A stretch of 35,635 nucleotides of DNA, from NCBI GenBank assembly GCA_030278895.1, contig JARXKK010000021.1, positions 1 through 35,635 of the forward strand, written 5' to 3'. The stretch's first letter is position 1, and each line of letters opens with the position of its first letter. The stretch comes from Acidobacteriota bacterium (GTDB lineage Bacteria; Acidobacteriota; Thermoanaerobaculia; UBA5066). Below the pieces are notes generated by a model. The model was not told the DNA's origin. It saw only the letters and a list, made by a program, of their open reading frames with translations, and did not search any database. Below are positions 7,970-33,257 of this stretch, one piece after another. The position numbers and the translations under genes are program-made.

Positions 7970-7996
7970 AAGCGGGCGGTCACGATGCCACGTTTG

Positions 7997-9127
7997 TCAA
8001 CTCTTTGCCCGTGCCCTCGCGAAAAGAGCCCCCGGAAGGACCGTCACGAGACCTTCCAGCTCGAGGTGCAGGAGGGCCGCCGAGAAGCGCGCCGCGTCGA
8101 GACCGGTGGCCGCGAGGAGGGCGTCCGAGTCCCGCGGCTCGTCGGCGTCGAGGCCCGCGAGGAGCGCCACGGCGTCGGGCGAAAGATGATCGGGAATCGC
8201 CCTCGCGTCGCGCTCCGGGACCGACCGCCGGAGCCGCCGGCGCTCCTCCTCCGGCAGCTCCTGGAGCAGATCGTCGGCGTTCCTCACGAAGATCGCGCCG
8301 TCCTTGAGAAGCGCGTTCGACCCGAACGTCCCCGGCGAGAGAATCGAGCCCGGGACCGCGGCGACGTCGCGGCCATAGCCCATCGCGCAGCGGGCCGTGA
8401 TCAGGGAGCCGCTCTTCTCGGCCGCCTCGACGACGCAGACGATGCGCGCGAGCCCGGCGATGATGCGGTTGCGCACCGGGAAGTTCCAGGGCTCGGGCTC
8501 CGTCCCCATCGGAAATTCCGAGAGCGCGGCCCCCGCCGCGAGAAGCGTCCCGAAGAGACTCTTCTGCTCGGGCGGGTAGCAAACGTCGACGCCGCAGCCG
8601 AGAACAGCGAGCGTCCGTCCGCCCGCGTCGAGCGCCGCGCGATGGGCCGCCGCGTCGACGCCGCGGGCAAATCCGGAGACGACGTTCACGCCGGCCTCCG
8701 CCAGGCCCGTCGCGAGGGCACGCGCCGCTTCGAGGCCCGCGCGGGACGCGCGACGCGCTCCGACGACGGCGATCGCCGGGGCCTCGGTGAGGGCGAGACC
8801 CCGCGCGAACAGGACGGGCGGCGGGTCGTGGATCTCGCGCAGAAGAGCGGGGTACTCGGGGTCGGTCAGGAAGACGACGCGCGCGCCCGAGCCCTCGAGC
8901 CGCCGGGCGTCCTCCCCGATTTCGTTCCCCTCGTCTCCCGCGACGAGCGGCGCGACGACGGCGAGGTCCTCGCCCGAGATCCGGGCGGCCTCTTCCGGGG
9001 ACAGCGTGCGGACGGCGGCGGGCGACCCGGCCGAAAGAAGGAGCGTCCGAAGGGCACGCGAAGCCCTGCCGCGCCCCTTTCGGGCCCAGATGAGTCCTGT
9101 CCGGGCATCGTTCGCCGCGCCTTGCAT
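7997..9127 (-). CDS. dprA: DNA-processing protein DprA
   Basis: AIAVVGARRASRAGLEAARALATGLAEAGVNVVSGFARGVDAAAHRAALDAGGRTLAVLGCGVDVCYPPE...FPVRNRIIAGLARIVCVVEAAEKSGSLITA; adjacent to topA. Confidence 0.95.
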   Translation of the reverse strand: MQGAANDARTGLIWARKGRGRASRALRTLLLSAGSPAAVRTLSPEEAARISGEDLAVVAPLVAGDEGNEIGEDARRLEGSGARVVFLTDPEYPALLREIHDPPPVLFARGLALTEAPAIAVVGARRASRAGLEAARALATGLAEAGVNVVSGFARGVDAAAHRAALDAGGRTLAVLGCGVDVCYPPEQKSLFGTLLAAGAALSEFPMGTEPEPWNFPVRNRIIAGLARIVCVVEAAEKSGSLITARCAMGYGRDVAAVPGSILSPGTFGSNALLKDGAIFVRNADDLLQELPEEERRRLRRSVPERDARAIPDHLSPDAVALLAGLDADEPRDSDALLAATGLDAARFSAALLHLELEGLVTVLPGALFARARAKS

Positions 9128-9193
9128 GCGGCACCCCTTTTGCTCAGAGAAGAAGTCTCAAGACCGGTGTCTATAATGCCCGACCTCTTCGTG

Positions 9194-9709
9194 ATGCGTC
9201 GCTTTCGCCCTGCCGCCGCGCTGTTCGTGGCCGTCGCCGCGACGGGTACGGTCGCGTGCGCGTCGTCGTCGCCCGCGGCGAAGTCCGGTGGCTCCTGGAA
9301 GGGCGAGAACGCGTACGGGACCGAAATGGCCCGCAAGGGTTTCTGGCGCGAGGCCCTCTTCCGTTACGAGAAAGCGGCCGCCGCGCAGCCCGCTAACGCC
9401 GCGGTCCAGAACAACCTGGGCGTCGCCTACGAGAGCGTCGGGGAGACGTCGCGCGCCCTGGCGGCCTACAAGAAGGCCCTCGAACTCTCCCCGCAGGATC
9501 CTAAAATCAAGCGCAATTACGCGCGCTTCGCCGAGTACTACACCTCGGTGCAGCGGGCGTCGTCGCTGCCCGCGCCCTCTGCGTCCGCGCCCTCTCTATC
9601 CGCGCCGGCCGCGCCGGCCCCCGTTCCCGCCGCGCCCCCGGTGCCGTCCCCCGCGCCCGTTCCTCCGGCACCGCCAACGTTCGCGACGCCTCCGGGAGGA
9701 TCGGCATGA
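9194..9709 (+). CDS. TPR-repeat lipoprotein with Pro/Ala-rich C-terminal tail
   Basis: ATG 9194 (alternatives GTG 9191, ATG 9176): MRRFRPAAALFVAVAATGTVACASSS; TPR AAVQNNLGVAYESVGETSRALAAYKKALELSPQDPKIKRNYARF; C-terminal PAP/VPAAPP run. Confidence 0.8.
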   Translation: MRRFRPAAALFVAVAATGTVACASSSPAAKSGGSWKGENAYGTEMARKGFWREALFRYEKAAAAQPANAAVQNNLGVAYESVGETSRALAAYKKALELSPQDPKIKRNYARFAEYYTSVQRASSLPAPSASAPSLSAPAAPAPVPAAPPVPSPAPVPPAPPTFATPPGGSA

Positions 9710-10407
9710 CGGCCGGCGGCCGGCGGCGCCTCGCCATCCTTCTCGCGGCCCTCCTCGCGGCCGCCTGCTCCTCGGCGAAGGAGGTCAAGCTCAAGCTTCC
9801 TCTTCGACCGAAGCTCGCCGTCACGGGGCGAGAGCGCCTCTCCCTCGCGCCCTTTCTCGTCGCGTCGAAGCTCTCCGACAAGAAGGACGCGCCGCGCTAC
9901 AAGGACCTCGACCTCGACACGGAGTTCCGCCGCTACCTCGGCAAGCAGCTCGGCAAGCGCACGAAGATGACGATCGTGGCGATGCCCCAGGATGTCCGCC
10001 TTCCGACGCAGAACCTGAAGGAGCTCGGCGAGGCCGCGGATTTCTGGCGCGGCGTCGGAACGCGAACGGGAGCCGACATTCTCCTGACCGGCGTCGTCGA
10101 CTTCCGCGTGGAGAACAAGTCCGGCTATCGCGCCGAGGAATACCGCAGCCCCATCGACAACCGGATCTACTACCGGCAGGTGCTCGTCGAGTCGACGGGT
10201 TTCACGTTCGACGTGACGGTCGTCGCGATCGACGGGCACACGGGGCTGAAGCTCTTCCAGGAAAATTTCCGCGACACGAAGGAGAAGAACCGCCGGACCA
10301 CGGACGAGCTCGTCGGCCTCTTCGAGAATCTCTTCTCCCTCGAAAACCAGCTCCTCGGGCTCTTCGTGGTGCGCGAGCGGGAGGCGAACCGTTATGTCTT
10401 CGATTAG
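9706..10407 (+). CDS. Putative lipoprotein of unknown function
   Basis: ATG overlaps preceding stop (ATGA); ILLAALLAAACSSAK lipobox; no family confidently recognised. Confidence 0.75.
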   Translation: MTAGGRRRLAILLAALLAAACSSAKEVKLKLPLRPKLAVTGRERLSLAPFLVASKLSDKKDAPRYKDLDLDTEFRRYLGKQLGKRTKMTIVAMPQDVRLPTQNLKELGEAADFWRGVGTRTGADILLTGVVDFRVENKSGYRAEEYRSPIDNRIYYRQVLVESTGFTFDVTVVAIDGHTGLKLFQENFRDTKEKNRRTTDELVGLFENLFSLENQLLGLFVVREREANRYVFD

Positions 10408-13264
10408 GAAGGTCAGGGCCCTCGCCACGTGCGCGGGCCTCGCGCTCGCGATCCTCCTCGCGAAAGAGGCGCGGCCCGCCGGACAGAACAAGATCGTCTA
10501 CGACAAGTTCGACTGGCAGATCTACCAGTCGACGCACTTCGACATGTACCACTATTCGCGCGAGAGACAGACCCTTCAAAAGGTCGTGTCGATGGCGGAG
10601 TCGGCCTACGACGAGCTGTCGCGCCGGCTGAACTACCAGATCCCGAAGCGGATCCCGATCATCTACTACGCGACGCACGCCGAGTTCGAGCAGAACAACA
10701 TCGAGCTCAACTTCATCCCCGAAGGCGTCGGCGCCTTCGCGGAACCCGCCCGCAACCGGATGGTTCTCCCGATCGACCTGCCGGACGAGAAGCTCCAGGC
10801 GCTCATCCAGCACGAGCTCACGCACGTCTTCCAGTACGAGATCCTGTTCGGCGGAAGGCTCGGCCGCGCTCTCACGGCGAACGTCCCGACCTGGGTCGTC
10901 GAGGGAATGGCGTCCTACTACGGGAACGACGAGGACGACAAGGACCGCATGTACCTTCGGGACGCGGTCAACCAAGACCTCATCCCCCCCATCACGAAAG
11001 TCAACATCGAGGGCTATCCCGCCTACCGCTACGGCCACGCCGTGTACGACTTCATGGAAGCGGAGTGGGGCAAGGACGCCGTCCGGGACTTCCTCTTCGA
11101 ATACCGTTCTTTCCTGGGCCGGGACGTCGCCATAGCGCTCCGGCGCGCCTTCGAGATCCAGCCGGACGACTTCGACCTCAAGTTCCGTCGTTACCTCCGG
11201 CGCAAGTTCCTGCCGCTCCTCGCGTCCAAGGGGGAGGCCAGCGAATACGGGGAACGCTTCCGCGTGGGCCCGTACGGACGGGAGTCGTTCGAGATCGGGG
11301 CGGCTCCGTCCCCTTCGGGCGAGTTCGTCGCGACGCTCACGACGGTCAAGGGAGACGTCGACATCGCCCTCCTCTCCGTGAGGGACCGCAAGCTCTACAA
11401 AAACCTGTCCGCGGGCCACACGACGCAGTACGAGTACATCGTCGGGCAGTACCTCACGACGGGCCCGGAAAGCGGGCGCGATCTCTCCTTCGCGCCGGAC
11501 GGCGACCGCATCGCCGCCTTCGGCCGGCAGGAGCGCGGCCGCAAGCTGCTCATCTTCTCGGCGCGCGGAGGCGGGCTCCTCGAGCGCATCTCCGTCGCCC
11601 CGGACGTTCCGCTCGCGCCGTCGTGGTCGCCGGACGGAAACTTCATCGTCTTCTCCGGCCTCGAGGGCAACAGCCGCGACATCTTCCTCCTCGACATGAA
11701 GACGCGTGCCGTCCGGAACCTCACGAACGATCCCGCCTATGACGAGGCGCCCGTCTTTTCGCCCGACGGCAAGTGGATCTACCACTCGAAGATCGTGGGC
11801 GGCTTCTCGAAGATCGTACGGTTCCCGGTCGACGATCCCTCGAAGATTGAGCAGGTCACGTGGGGCGACAGCAACGACGAGGATCCGTCCTTCTCGCCCG
11901 GCGGAAAAAGGATCTACTACGCCTCCTCCCGGGGCGGGATCTTCAACATCTACGGCCAGGACCTGGTCACGGGCGAGATTTCACAGTACACGGACGTGAT
12001 CGGCGCGGCGCTCGGGCCCGCCGCCTTCACCGGCCCCGACGGCCAGGAGAAGATCGTCTTCTCCGGCTTCCAGGGCCTCCGCTTCCAGCTTTACGTCGCG
12101 GACGCGAAGAAGCCGTTCCGCAAGCTCGACGAGCGCGCGCTGCCGCCCGCCCCGGTCACAGCGGGTGGAACGGCCGGTTTCGTGCCCGCCGTCGAAGTCG
12201 CGGTCGACCCGGAGAAGCTCTCGCGCCCGAAGTTCAAGCTCTTCCTCGACAACGCGCAGGTGCTCGCGGGCATCAACACGGACCAGACCTTCGTCTCGCA
12301 GGTCGTCCTGTCGTTCTCGGACTACCTCGGCGACCACCGCGCGTTCTTCCAGTTCGACTCCGTGTCCACGTTCTCGAACTTTCGCCTCGGGTTTTTCAAC
12401 ATCTCGAAGCGGTTCCAGTGGGGTCTTCAGGTCTACGATCAGCGCCAGTACTTCTACGGATACAACTACGAGACGGGCGACTTCACACGCGATCAGCGCA
12501 TCTCGCGGGACACGGGGATCTCGCTTTCCGGCTACTACCCGATCTCGCGTTACACGCGCCTCGAGGGAAACGTCGGCTTCCTGAGCCGCTCGCTCGACGT
12601 GCCCTATGCGATCTCGAACGCCGACGGATCCCAGGCGGTTTTCTACGATCCACGCACAGACAACGTGCCGACGGTGGGCGTCGGGATCTCGTACGACACG
12701 ACGCGCTACGCGGCCTTCGGTCCGATCGGCGGCAAGCGCATGGACCTGAACTTCCAGTACACGCCGTCCTTCCAGAAGGGAGAGTCCTCCCTCTCCTTCG
12801 ACGGTTTCATGGATGCCCGCATCTACATTCCGTTGTCGCGGCGCGTCCTCATCGCGATGCGCGGCTTCGCGGCGTTCTCCCGCGGGGCGGCACCGACGGT
12901 GTTCTCTTTCGGCGGCCTCGACACGCTCCGCGGCTACGACTACCGGAGCGTCTTCGGAAACAACGCCTTTTACGTGAATGCGGAGCTCCGGTTTCCCCTC
13001 ATCGACCTTCTCGCGACGCCGGTCTTGCAGTTCGGCGGCATCCGGGGACACGTCTTTTGCGACGTGGCGGGCGGCTGGCTCAAGGACGCGGGGTTCCAGT
13101 TCATCAAGGATGCGCGCCTGAAGAACGGGCTCTCCTCGTTCGGCGCGGGCTTCAGCGTCTACTTCCTCGGCCTGCCGTGGAACGTGGACTGGGCGAAGCA
13201 GTGGGACTGGAACTCGTCGCTGACCGACTGGACGACCTCCTTCTACATCGGGTACACGTTCTAG
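10394..13264 (+). CDS. Secreted fusion protein: gluzincin-type metallopeptidase domain + PD40/TolB-like beta-propeller + Omp85/BamA-like outer-membrane barrel
   Basis: N-terminal signal; QHELTHVFQYE...VPTWVVEGMASYYG (HExxH plus downstream Glu); propeller repeats FAPDGDRIAAF / WSPDGNFIVFS / FSPDGKWIYHS / FSPGGKRIYYAS; C-terminal GGLDTLRGYDY motif and terminal FYIGYTF. Confidence 0.85.
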   Translation: MSSIRKVRALATCAGLALAILLAKEARPAGQNKIVYDKFDWQIYQSTHFDMYHYSRERQTLQKVVSMAESAYDELSRRLNYQIPKRIPIIYYATHAEFEQNNIELNFIPEGVGAFAEPARNRMVLPIDLPDEKLQALIQHELTHVFQYEILFGGRLGRALTANVPTWVVEGMASYYGNDEDDKDRMYLRDAVNQDLIPPITKVNIEGYPAYRYGHAVYDFMEAEWGKDAVRDFLFEYRSFLGRDVAIALRRAFEIQPDDFDLKFRRYLRRKFLPLLASKGEASEYGERFRVGPYGRESFEIGAAPSPSGEFVATLTTVKGDVDIALLSVRDRKLYKNLSAGHTTQYEYIVGQYLTTGPESGRDLSFAPDGDRIAAFGRQERGRKLLIFSARGGGLLERISVAPDVPLAPSWSPDGNFIVFSGLEGNSRDIFLLDMKTRAVRNLTNDPAYDEAPVFSPDGKWIYHSKIVGGFSKIVRFPVDDPSKIEQVTWGDSNDEDPSFSPGGKRIYYASSRGGIFNIYGQDLVTGEISQYTDVIGAALGPAAFTGPDGQEKIVFSGFQGLRFQLYVADAKKPFRKLDERALPPAPVTAGGTAGFVPAVEVAVDPEKLSRPKFKLFLDNAQVLAGINTDQTFVSQVVLSFSDYLGDHRAFFQFDSVSTFSNFRLGFFNISKRFQWGLQVYDQRQYFYGYNYETGDFTRDQRISRDTGISLSGYYPISRYTRLEGNVGFLSRSLDVPYAISNADGSQAVFYDPRTDNVPTVGVGISYDTTRYAAFGPIGGKRMDLNFQYTPSFQKGESSLSFDGFMDARIYIPLSRRVLIAMRGFAAFSRGAAPTVFSFGGLDTLRGYDYRSVFGNNAFYVNAELRFPLIDLLATPVLQFGGIRGHVFCDVAGGWLKDAGFQFIKDARLKNGLSSFGAGFSVYFLGLPWNVDWAKQWDWNSSLTDWTTSFYIGYTF

Positions 13265-13339: not shown

Positions 13340-14101
13340 GTGCGCGTTCGCGTTCTCGGAGCCCATGGCGGCTCCTCGCCCTCCCATCGGCAGACGTCCT
13401 TCCTCGTGAACGGGACGGTCTGCGTCGACGCCGGCGCCCTTACGGACGCGCTGACGCTGGAGGAACAGGCCGAAGTACGCGCCGTCCTCGTCACGCACGC
13501 ACACATGGACCACATCGCGTCGCTCCCTTTCCTGGTCGAGAACGTCTTCGGCCGGAAGGCATCTCCCCTCGAGCTCGTGGCCCCGGAGGACGTTCTCGCC
13601 GCCCTCCGGAAACACCTGTTCAACGACGCCCTGTGGCCTGATTTCTCGCGTCTCCTGAACGATTTCGTGCCCGCGGTGACGTATCGGGCCGTCCCCGTCG
13701 GCGAGCCGTTCGCGGTCGGGGCGCTCATCGGAACCGCCATCCCGGTGTCGCACGTCGTCCCGACCGTCGGCTACATCCTCGAGGACCGCGGCACGAGCAT
13801 CGTGTTCTCGGGCGACACGGGCCCGACGGATGCGCTGTGGCGAGCCGCGCGCGCTCGAACCGACGTCAAAGGCATCTTCGTCGAGTGCTCGTTTCCGAAT
13901 TCTCTGCAGCACCTCGCGGACGTTTCGAAGCACCTTACCCCCGCGACGCTGCAGTCCGAAATCGTGAAGTTTCCGCCAGGGGCGCCGATTCATCTCTACC
14001 ACATGAAACCGCCGGGCCTTCCGCGCCTCAGGGCCGAGGTCGCGGAGCTCGGGGACGCGCGCGTCTCGATCCTCGCGGACGGAGACGTGCTGGACTTCTA
14101 G
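13340..14101 (+). CDS. Metallo-beta-lactamase-fold hydrolase, class II cyclic-nucleotide phosphodiesterase-like
   Basis: GTG start; MRVRVLGAHGGSSPSHRQTSFLVN...VLVTHAHMDHIASLPFLVENVFG...VPTVGYILEDRGTSIVFSGDTGPTDALW. Confidence 0.82.
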   Translation: MRVRVLGAHGGSSPSHRQTSFLVNGTVCVDAGALTDALTLEEQAEVRAVLVTHAHMDHIASLPFLVENVFGRKASPLELVAPEDVLAALRKHLFNDALWPDFSRLLNDFVPAVTYRAVPVGEPFAVGALIGTAIPVSHVVPTVGYILEDRGTSIVFSGDTGPTDALWRAARARTDVKGIFVECSFPNSLQHLADVSKHLTPATLQSEIVKFPPGAPIHLYHMKPPGLPRLRAEVAELGDARVSILADGDVLDF

Positions 14102-20190: not shown

Positions 20191-27594
<7,404 letters not shown>

Positions 27595-27838
27595 GACTTC
27601 TCCTTATCTCCTCAATCCTATCATTTAGAGGTAGTCAAAAGTAGTAGAAGTAGTAGGGGGGGCCCAAAAGTGCATTAGGAGATAAAGATCTAAAAGGGAG
27701 ACATTTAGGACCGGCTCCGGGCTGTGGAACTCTGTCCCGAGGCCTGTGAAAAGAAAGGCCGACCGAGACGGTGGGGCGGACTTTTCCAACGGCGGCGAGA
27801 AGGGTCGCCCGGGCGGGGCGGAAAAGAGGTGGAAAAGG
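27595..27838. other. Putative chromosomal origin (oriC) in dnaN-dnaA intergenic region
   Basis: AT-richer than the surroundings; DnaA-trio array TAGTAGAAGTAGTAG (27642-27656), adjacent G/C cluster, near-consensus DnaA boxes at 27669-27677 (7/9), 27723-27731 (7/9), 27745-27753 (8/9) and 27828-27836 (8/9) against TTWTNCACA. Confidence 0.8.
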
Positions 27839-29152
27839 TCACCGAAACTGGGCCAGAAAACCCGCCAGGAGCCGGTCGAGCACGGGGTCCTCCTCGCGCA
27901 GCGCCGCGATCTTCCGGATGGCGTGCAGCGCCGTCGTGTGGTGTTTGTCGGAGAAAAGGCGGCCGATCTCGGGAAGAGACAGACCCGTGGCCTCCTTGAG
28001 GACGTACATCGTGACCTGTCGCGCGAAAACGATGGGGCCTCTCTTCGTGCGCGCGCGCAGCTCTGCGGGCTTGAGGCCATAGTGCGCGCCGACGAGCTTG
28101 AGGATCTCGGCCGGGGTCGTCGCGTGCTCCTCGGCGCGAAAGACGTCCTTCAGCGCCTCCCGGCCGAGGTCGAGCGAGATCGCCTCGCCCTTCAGGGAGG
28201 CGAACGCCACGACGCGGTTGAAATAACCCTCCAGCTCTCGGATCGACGATTTGATCTTGCCTGCCAGGAAGAACGCGACGTCGTCTTCGAGCACGACCTG
28301 GTTGGCCTCCGCCTTCTGGCGGAGGATCGCGACCTTCGTCTCGAAGTCGGGCAGCTGGATGTCCACGATGAGGCCGCCCTCGAATCTGCTCTTGAGTCGG
28401 TCCGTGAGGCCGGGAATCTCGCGTGGCGGGACGTCGGAGGAGAAGACGATCTGGTTGCCCTCGTCATAGAGCGCGTTGAACGTGTGGAAGAGCTCGTTTT
28501 CGGACGCTTCCTTCCCGACGACGAACTGAACGTCGTCGAGGAGCAGGATGTCCGCGGCGCGAAAGCGCTGGCGAAGGCTTTCCATCTTGTTGAACCGGAC
28601 CCCGAGGACGACTTCGTTCACGAAGTTCTCGGAGGTCAGGTAGACGACCTTCTCGCCCGGCCGCCGCGAAAGACGCCGATGGCCGATGGCCTGCATGAGG
28701 TGCGTCTTGCCGAGGCCGGTTCCTCCGCAGACGAACAGCGGGTTGTATTGCCGCGAGGTCTGGTCCGCCACGCGGAGCGCCGCCGCGTGCGCGAGGCGAT
28801 TGGACTCGCCGGTCACGAAGTGCTCGAACGTGTAGGCGGGGTTCAGGCCGCCCGCCCGGCGGCGGGGCTCCGCGGGCACTTTCTGGGGGTTCACGGCGGA
28901 ACGGTACTCCCCGTCGGCACCGAATCGGATCTCCCGGTTGCCGGCGCCCGCGAGGCGGGCCGCTTCGGCGATCTGTACGGCGTAGGCCTCTGGGATGTAG
29001 TCGACGAACAGCGGCGTCCGGACCTGCACGAAAATGGCTTCGGGGGTCTCGGACTTCTGCCGCGAATCCCGGAACCAAGAGTCGAACTCGCGCTCGTCCA
29101 CGCGCGTCTTCAGGTGCTCCAGGATCTTGGCCCAGGTCGATGTCTTTTCCAC
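27839..29152 (-). CDS. dnaA: Chromosomal replication initiator protein DnaA
   Basis: [19 protein letters not shown] (Walker A), [14 protein letters not shown] (Walker B), [40 protein letters not shown] (domain IV). GTG at 29152 has a GGAG SD; an upstream in-frame ATG at 29173 is the alternative. Confidence 0.98.
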
Positions 29153-29153
29153 A
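29145..29153 (+). promoter_or_regulatory. DnaA box, perfect TTTTCCACA
   Basis: Exact match to TTWTNCACA at the dnaA start. Confidence 0.7.
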
Positions 29154-29166
29154 GGATCTCCACCGC

Positions 29167-29175
29167 TGTGCATAT
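29167..29175 (-). promoter_or_regulatory. DnaA box-like ATATGCACA (8/9)
   Basis: One mismatch to TTWTNCACA, opposite orientation to the 29145 box. Confidence 0.5.
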
Positions 29176-31880: not shown

Positions 31881-33257
31881 ATGGCGCGCCTCGTGGCGGA
31901 CCCCGACCGCGAGGGCGACGTGCTCGTCGCCCCCGCGACGCCGCCGGGCATCTCGGCGCTCGCCGTCGTCCGGCTGACCGGCCCGGCGGGCGCGACCCGC
32001 CGGGTCGCGCGGCAAATTGCGCGGCGCCTTCCCGAAGAGCCGCGCCCGCGCGAGGCGGCGCTGCATCTTCTGGTCGGAGAGGACGGTCGGCCGCTCGACC
32101 GTGCGCTCGTCCTCTTCTTTCCGGCCCCGCATTCGGCGACGGGAGAAGAAGTCGTCGAGTTCCTGTGTCACGGATCCCCCGCAATCGTGGGGGGACTTCT
32201 CGCCGCGGCGCGTGCTGCGGGGGCACGGCCGGCCAAGCGGGGCGAGTTCACGCGGCGCGCCCTCGCGAACGGGAAGCTGGACCTGGCCGAGGCCGAAGGG
32301 GTCGCCGCGCTCGCGGCGGCGGAGAACCGGGGCGCGGCGAGGCGCGCGTTGTCTCTCGTGGAGGGGGACCTGTCCCGCCGCGTTCTCGCGGCGAAAGAGG
32401 CGATCCTCGACGTTCTCGCCGGCCTCGAGGCCGGACTGGACTTCGCCGAGGACGTGGAGGCCGCGGACCTCCTCGCGGCGGGCGCCGCGCTCGATGCTGC
32501 CGCGGGGGAAGTCGAGGCCCTGGCCGCTACGGCGGCCCGGGGGGGCGCGCGCGACCGGCGTAAGGTGGTTGCGATTCTCGGCCGGCCGAACGCGGGGAAG
32601 TCGACGCTCTTCAACGCTCTCGTCGGGCGCGACCGGGCCATCGTGACGGCCGTTCCGGGGACGACACGCGACGCCATCGCGGACACGTGCGAGATCGGCG
32701 GGGAGACGGTGACGCTGCTCGACACGGCGGGCCTCCGGGCGACGGAGGACGAAGTCGAGAAGATCGGCGTCGCGGTGGCCGAGCGCGCGGGCGAGGGCGC
32801 GGACCTCGTTCTTTACGCGATCGACGCCACGCGAGGCCTGTCCGAGGAGGACGAAGATTTTCTTAGAAGGGGAAGAGGTGAGGGGACGTTGCTCGTCAGG
32901 ACGAAGACGGATCTTGTCGGGGCTTCTTCTCTTTCTTCTTCTCCCGCAATCGAGCTCTCCGTCTCCGCCCTCATCGGCGCCGGTCTCGAAGCGCTTCGCG
33001 CACAGATGGCCGAGCGCCTCTCTCTCGTCGAGGCGGACGGCGAGCTGCTCGTCCTCGAACGGCATCGCGAGGCGCTCGCGTCCGCGGCGGCGTTCCTCCG
33101 CGACGCGGCGGACCTGGCCCGGCGTGTGCCCGGCGAACCCGAGCTCGTCGCGGCGCGCGTTCGCGAAGCCCTGGCGGCGCTCGGGGCGATCACGGGCGAA
33201 ACGGCGACCGAGGAGCTCCTGGACCGCATCTTCGCGGCGTTCTGCGTGGGCAAGTAG
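31881..33257 (+). CDS. mnmE: tRNA modification GTPase MnmE
   Basis: ISALAVVRLTGP; GRPNAGKSTLFNALVGRDRAIVTAVPGTTRDAI; C-terminal FCVGK. Confidence 0.97.
   Translation: MARLVADPDREGDVLVAPATPPGISALAVVRLTGPAGATRRVARQIARRLPEEPRPREAALHLLVGEDGRPLDRALVLFFPAPHSATGEEVVEFLCHGSPAIVGGLLAAARAAGARPAKRGEFTRRALANGKLDLAEAEGVAALAAAENRGAARRALSLVEGDLSRRVLAAKEAILDVLAGLEAGLDFAEDVEAADLLAAGAALDAAAGEVEALAATAARGGARDRRKVVAILGRPNAGKSTLFNALVGRDRAIVTAVPGTTRDAIADTCEIGGETVTLLDTAGLRATEDEVEKIGVAVAERAGEGADLVLYAIDATRGLSEEDEDFLRRGRGEGTLLVRTKTDLVGASSLSSSPAIELSVSALIGAGLEALRAQMAERLSLVEADGELLVLERHREALASAAAFLRDAADLARRVPGEPELVAARVREALAALGAITGETATEELLDRIFAAFCVGK

Follow-up and report, generated by a model that had tools for sequence, protein, structure and literature searches.

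The closest described relatives of the protein reported here are those of the WD40-Omp85 subfamily, which was catalogued in 2014 by Heinz and Lithgow as POTRA-less proteins combining an Omp85 barrel with a propeller similar to that of TolB, which was left uncharacterised and which these authors likened to a BamA-BamB fusion (PMC4104836). The same catalogue contains a "Metallo" Omp85 subfamily that is defined by PF00149. Another point of reference is PlpD, a patatin-Omp85 protein once thought to be exposed at the surface or secreted and which keeps its patatin domain in the periplasm; the 2024 paper on PlpD considers that the WD40 and metalloprotease Omp85 subfamilies are still not well characterised (PMC11116518).

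Domain layout of the fusion protein

The window analysed here is a stretch of 35,635 nt that corresponds to one whole contig in the genome of an uncultured acidobacterium (3.47 Mb in 243 contigs). An intact ORF with an ATG start (10394-13264, plus strand) encodes a protein of 956 aa, in which a preliminary description had read a gluzincin, a PD40 propeller and an Omp85 barrel devoid of POTRA. The ORF and the motifs that it had listed were all located as given, namely HELTH, VVEGMASYYG (residues 168-177), GGLDTLRGYDY (residues 840-850) and FYIGYTF at the end of the chain, and its domain reading agrees with AlphaFold2 (AF2), Foldseek and profile analyses: the model contains a 16-strand barrel and an N-terminal domain whose fold matches that of gluzincins, the PD40 profile was matched with an E-value of 7.6e-20, PF01103 (Omp85) scored above its curated cut-off at the locus and Pfam Peptidase_MA_2 was matched by 44 of 56 members.

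The full-length AF2 model, obtained with a 56-sequence alignment, has a mean pLDDT of 87.9 and a pTM of 0.86. It predicts in order a mixed helix/strand domain, six blades' worth of strands and 16 barrel strands, the numbers of blades and of barrel strands being counted from the AF2 strand list, and a Foldseek search using the complete model retrieved structures of TolB, of TamA and of BamA in numerous states. Along the chain, all on the plus strand, a signal-peptide-like N-terminus (residues 1-28; 10394-10477), with a hydrophobic stretch LATCAGLALAILLA and a pLDDT below 50, precedes a gluzincin-type metallopeptidase domain (residues 29-285; 10478-11248), a six-bladed beta-propeller of the TolB type that contains PD40 repeats (residues ca. 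293-584; 11270-12145), a linker (residues 585-616; 12146-12241) and the 16-stranded barrel (residues 617-956 plus the stop codon; 12242-13264). Similar hydrophobic N-termini occur in homologues. No POTRA domain is found in the model, residues 29-584 being occupied by the protease and the propeller and the linker having just 32 aa; this linker is Pro/Ala-rich with little secondary structure, its pLDDT is locally reduced and its conservation is the lowest of all segments. Sequence and model together show that a gluzincin protease and a TolB-like propeller of six blades are joined in a single chain to an Omp85 barrel of 16 strands that lacks POTRA.

When modelled alone (AF2 pLDDT 88.8, pTM 0.88), the N-terminal domain best matched in Foldseek the peptidase domains of M9 clostridial collagenases (E = 2.7e-5, TMq ca. 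0.6), followed by M1 aminopeptidases, and a comparison of its profile with PDB sequences again gave these two groups, weakly. The domain shares with both the HExxH...E signature and the fold of the catalytic domain, but identity is limited to ca. 9-17% and the collagenase activator domain is missing. Peptidase_M9 (PF01752) was matched at E <= 0.01 by 23 of the 56 members (best 7.1e-7), the window protein itself giving no match. The predicted zinc-binding and catalytic motif HELTH (residues 140-144; 10811-10825) and the predicted third zinc ligand Glu170 (10901-10903), the gluzincin glutamate located 26 residues past H144, are strictly conserved: H140, E141, H144 and E170 are invariant in 56/56 aligned homologues with identities down to 24%, and HExxH is kept in all 66 extracted ORFs. 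With an HExxH and a downstream Glu on a predicted zincin fold, the domain can be assigned to the gluzincins (MA(E)).

The propeller is nearest to TolB. The TolB-propeller model TIGR02800 was matched with an E-value of ca. 4.2e-27 (95.1 bits versus a cut-off of 343.15), and TolB entries of the PDB were retrieved both by sequence (E = 5.5e-20) and by fold (2ojh, TMt 0.71). The likeness consists of six blades, ca. 20% identity and a good fold match, whereas the window protein has no Pfam match to TolB_N (PF04052) and remains far below the TolB cut-off. Since a separate TolB-like gene (341.9 bits) exists in the host genome, the window protein is not the TolB of this organism. PD40 propellers are greatly expanded in this genome (3.5 Mb), in which 47 places match the TolB-propeller model, many of them in large ORFs.

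For the barrel, profile searches with the window protein gave E-values of 4.5e-6 (Omp85_fam) and 1.2e-5 (BamA OM_YaeT), an Omp85 Pfam match was found in 20 of 51 members, and Foldseek matched the BamA barrel 6qgw (TMt 0.66) as well as TamA (4c00). The loop-6 signature LRGYDY (residues 845-850; 12926-12943) lies at the junction of strands 11 and 12; R846 is invariant (56/56) and G847 is present in 46 of the 56 sequences, while the acidic partners of the motif are E864 in strand 12 (56/56) and D890 in strand 13 (48/56). A predicted 16-strand barrel and a loop-6 (V/L)RG(F/Y) motif whose acidic partners are conserved place the protein in the Omp85 superfamily, whereas the POTRA found before the barrel in canonical POTRA-bearing members (BamA, TamA, FhaC) is absent from the predicted structure. 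That the window protein might be the BamA of this genome was rejected, a POTRA-bearing BamA being encoded elsewhere (G000:C46) in addition to a second BamA-like protein (G000:C108:8854-10797, model positions 96-741). With a canonical BamA present elsewhere, the window protein is not the housekeeping assembly factor.

Distribution and selection

A whole-protein search at E <= 1e-20 gave matches in 150 of the 297 sampled Acidobacteriota genomes, a number that may include a few weak propeller-only matches. When domain profiles were applied to 149 genomes, 82 strong protease matches (E <= 1e-70) were found in 72 of them, and a hand tally indicated a strong barrel match in the same ORF for 78. Of the remaining four matches, three are in shorter ORFs, one of which (in G110) starts at base 14 of its contig, and the fourth is in G064, where the protease and the barrel occur in adjacent ORFs of 486 and 495 aa (G064:C206:1725-4335), either because the gene is split or because of a frameshift. 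No clear stand-alone barrel of this type was found with the domain profiles in the 149 Acidobacteriota genomes. The fusion is near-obligate within Acidobacteriota; the phyletic survey that the preliminary description had called for thus finds the architecture in ca. half of the sampled genomes of the phylum, nearly always as one ORF. An assembly artefact or a chance fusion is ruled out by this near-obligate occurrence and by the 56 homologues having the same architecture. Nor do the protease and barrel motifs occur together by accident, since H140, E141, H144, E170, R846, E864 and further residues are invariant in these homologues.

All named relatives detected by contig scan are Acidobacteria, the closest being a Thermoanaerobaculia MAG with 89% identity. 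A second subfamily (subfamily B, L073-L078) displays the same architecture with 24-25% identity and forms a separate, well-supported clade; its members sometimes share a genome with the first subfamily and lack the upstream FlgT_M-like gene (see below). Beyond the phylum, where plasmids were covered, the sole match was a barrel-less protein of Salinibacter ruber pSR116 (WP_118831798.1; L085:5902-7803), which has 633 aa and is annotated as "basic secretory protein-like protein". This protein resembles the window protein in having a protease and a propeller, with 29% identity to it over residues 30-533 and a higher value, 41%, with subfamily B, but differs from it by having no barrel, and its sequence suggests that in Rhodothermota the protease-propeller module occurs without one.

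Median identity to the window protein is 44% for the protease, 36% for the propeller and 32% for the barrel. Versus three close relatives, dN/dS values are 0.04-0.06, 0.07-0.10 and 0.23-0.28, respectively, and versus the more distant L011 they are higher (0.21, 0.32 and 0.53) with the order unchanged; by this measure constraint is strongest on the protease, and the barrel evolves fastest. A pseudoenzyme was rejected in view of the invariant active site and the lowest omega in the protease, and because the catalytic site is conserved and omega is lowest in this domain, we infer that proteolysis would be the retained function, with the barrel acting as an anchor.

Neighbouring genes

Two genes precede the fusion gene on the plus strand. 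The first encodes a putative TPR lipoprotein with a TVACA lipobox (9176-9709, with a start at 9176 or 9194) and overlaps by 4 bp the gene of a putative FlgT_M-like lipoprotein of 233 aa with a LAAAC lipobox (9706-10407), which in turn shares 14 bp with the fusion gene. An alternative reading of ORF 7985-9709 as a 574-aa TPR protein was discarded, as just its last ca. 175 aa (from 9176/9194) resemble the conserved gene. Among the 46 loci with longer flanks, the FlgT_M-like gene is found directly upstream in 33, across the phylum, and a TPR gene occupies the corresponding position in 28, with Pfam TPR matches at the window. The FlgT_M profile was matched by 16 of 26 members of the upstream partner (best E = 3.4e-5), and in several relatives the FlgT_M-like protein has, by eye, a plain signal-like N-terminus and not a lipobox. 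From these sequence comparisons, the TPR, FlgT_M-like and fusion genes are predicted to form a conserved operon that is usual in Acidobacteriota. Loci with no FlgT_M-like neighbour fall in two clades, L013-type and L073-L078, and so the operon is not required by all members. Downstream, a gene for a metallo-beta-lactamase-fold hydrolase (Pfam Lactamase_B_2/PDEase_II; 13340-14101, plus strand) is shared by 10 of the 46 loci, in nearer relatives only.

Elsewhere in the window, an origin-type cluster composed of gyrA, gyrB, a gene for a RecF/SMC-like ATPase and dnaA occupies the minus strand (20191-29173) and mnmE is found at 31881-33257 (plus strand), the fusion operon being located near this origin-type cluster. 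The region 1626-2816 encodes an OmpA-family C-terminal domain and a DUF4398, possibly a Pal/OmpA-like lipoprotein.

FlgT-M structurally resembles the N-terminal domain of TolB. For the upstream FlgT_M-like lipoprotein, no convincing relative was found in the PDB, and a profile comparison of this partner with acidobacterial TolB_N (hhalign) gave a weak match with a probability of just 36%; it may represent the TolB_N-like part of a split TolB. This similarity, added to a propeller nearest TolB by sequence and fold, would fit a Tol-Pal-like envelope tether that would hold a Pal-like lipoprotein through its propeller and whose role would be mainly structural or in division. We regard such a tether as highly improbable, given that the genome has its own TolB-like gene and that the invariance of the protease active site would be left unexplained.

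A dedicated Omp85 translocon or assembly factor is another reading, in which a cargo that may be the partner lipoprotein would be moved or inserted by the barrel, received by the propeller in place of POTRA and trimmed by the protease. The loop-6 RG motif and its acidic partners are kept as in active Omp85 proteins, the adjoining lipoprotein genes are conserved, and the BamA-BamB comparison made for WD40-Omp85 (PMC4104836) points the same way, but the barrel evolves fastest of the domains, the neighbourhoods have no obvious gene for a secreted cargo in common and two sub-clades lack the lipoprotein, so that we consider this reading unlikely.

Topology and proposed function

In the model, loop 6 follows strand 11, the position that it has in Omp85 proteins already characterised, and both ends of the barrel are on the periplasmic side; because loop 6 comes after strand 11, the N-terminus would also be periplasmic. 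Site variability was 0.29 on the predicted extracellular side versus 0.17 on the inner side (permutation p = 0.007, neighbouring sites not being independent).

This topology bears on the earlier proposal of a protease that secretes itself or is threaded through its own barrel, with patatin-Omp85 as the analogue. In a reading of this kind, the protease and propeller would thread their own barrel and act or be released outside, for instance in the digestion of external proteins. A folded propeller cannot cross the lumen of an Omp85 barrel without unfolding, which counts against self-secretion, as do the N-terminus that the predicted barrel topology sets in the periplasm and the nature of the conserved partners, which are TPR and FlgT_M-like (lipo)proteins. 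Threading is by itself compatible with the ca. 32-residue linker, a point to be set against the periplasmic reading, and Omp85/TpsB barrels such as FhaC do translocate polypeptides (PMC4104836); moreover, the closest folds to the N-terminal domain are secreted collagenases and the barrel-less Salinibacter protein implies that the module can operate without a barrel. PlpD, the nearest fusion that has been studied and once given the same role, has a periplasmic enzyme (PMC11116518), and because of this the balance moved from surface display to a periplasmic enzyme; the analogy with patatin-Omp85 now speaks for the periplasm, and self-secretion appears decidedly unlikely.

The reading that we favour, with about even confidence, is an outer-membrane-anchored periplasmic zinc endopeptidase that would take part in envelope protein processing or quality control together with partner proteins; a role in envelope quality control had also been suggested in the preliminary description. 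It is preferred because of the model and fold matches combined with an invariant HExxH...E, because purifying selection is strongest on the protease, because the fusion is near-obligate in the phylum and the upstream genes are conserved, and because strand order sets loop 6 after strand 11 and both barrel ends on the periplasmic side, with the predicted outer side showing the higher variability. Following Sec export, BAM would insert the barrel into the outer membrane, where it would hold the protease and the propeller at the periplasmic surface; substrates would be recruited or gated by the propeller together with the adjacent (lipo)proteins, and the protease would cleave envelope proteins on the periplasmic side, either to control the quality of outer-membrane or secreted proteins or to mature them. 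Anchoring and sensing would be the chief tasks of the barrel, which might also pass substrate. A bolder and doubtful extension would be an autonomous site of proteolysis at the outer membrane that does not depend on BAM/BepA and is made of a phylum-wide POTRA-less Omp85, a substrate-gating propeller, an active zinc endopeptidase and two dedicated (lipo)proteins; the propeller and the FlgT_M-like partner would then each supply a part of a TolB-like module.

With respect to known systems, the name alone of the "Metallo" Omp85 subfamily suggests a metalloprotease-Omp85, but PF00149 is Metallophos in Pfam and not a zincin, and membership was rejected as the window protein has no Pfam match to PF00149. 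In PlpD, likewise, the same chain carries an enzyme domain ahead of an Omp85 barrel (PMC11116518), but this enzyme is a patatin phospholipase accompanied by POTRA and there is no propeller; by sequence and model, the patatin domain and the single POTRA that define the PlpD type are both absent from the window protein. No NCBIfam model spans the full chain above its cut-off, and a literature search restricted to open-licence papers found none on a protease-propeller-barrel fusion. The protein does share with WD40-Omp85, as presented in the main text of PMC4104836, a predicted TolB-like propeller directly before an Omp85 barrel and no POTRA, and by this architecture would fall in that subfamily; the difference is that a protease ahead of the propeller is not mentioned in this main text, although the comparison being with the main text only, members catalogued in 2014 may carry the same protease unrecognised. 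The replacement of POTRA, which the preliminary description had pointed out, was already known for its propeller-barrel part, and the protease part is what that main text does not contain. Overall, a barrel and propeller of this kind were known, and the invariant protease and the partner genes seem not to have been described. The usual view of Omp85 proteins is that of machines made of POTRA and a barrel, and a widespread lineage in which POTRA gives way to a TolB-like propeller and a protease that invariably looks active offers a testable case of what a barrel can do by itself, while the active site and the partner genes provide clues to function for the WD40-Omp85 subfamily.
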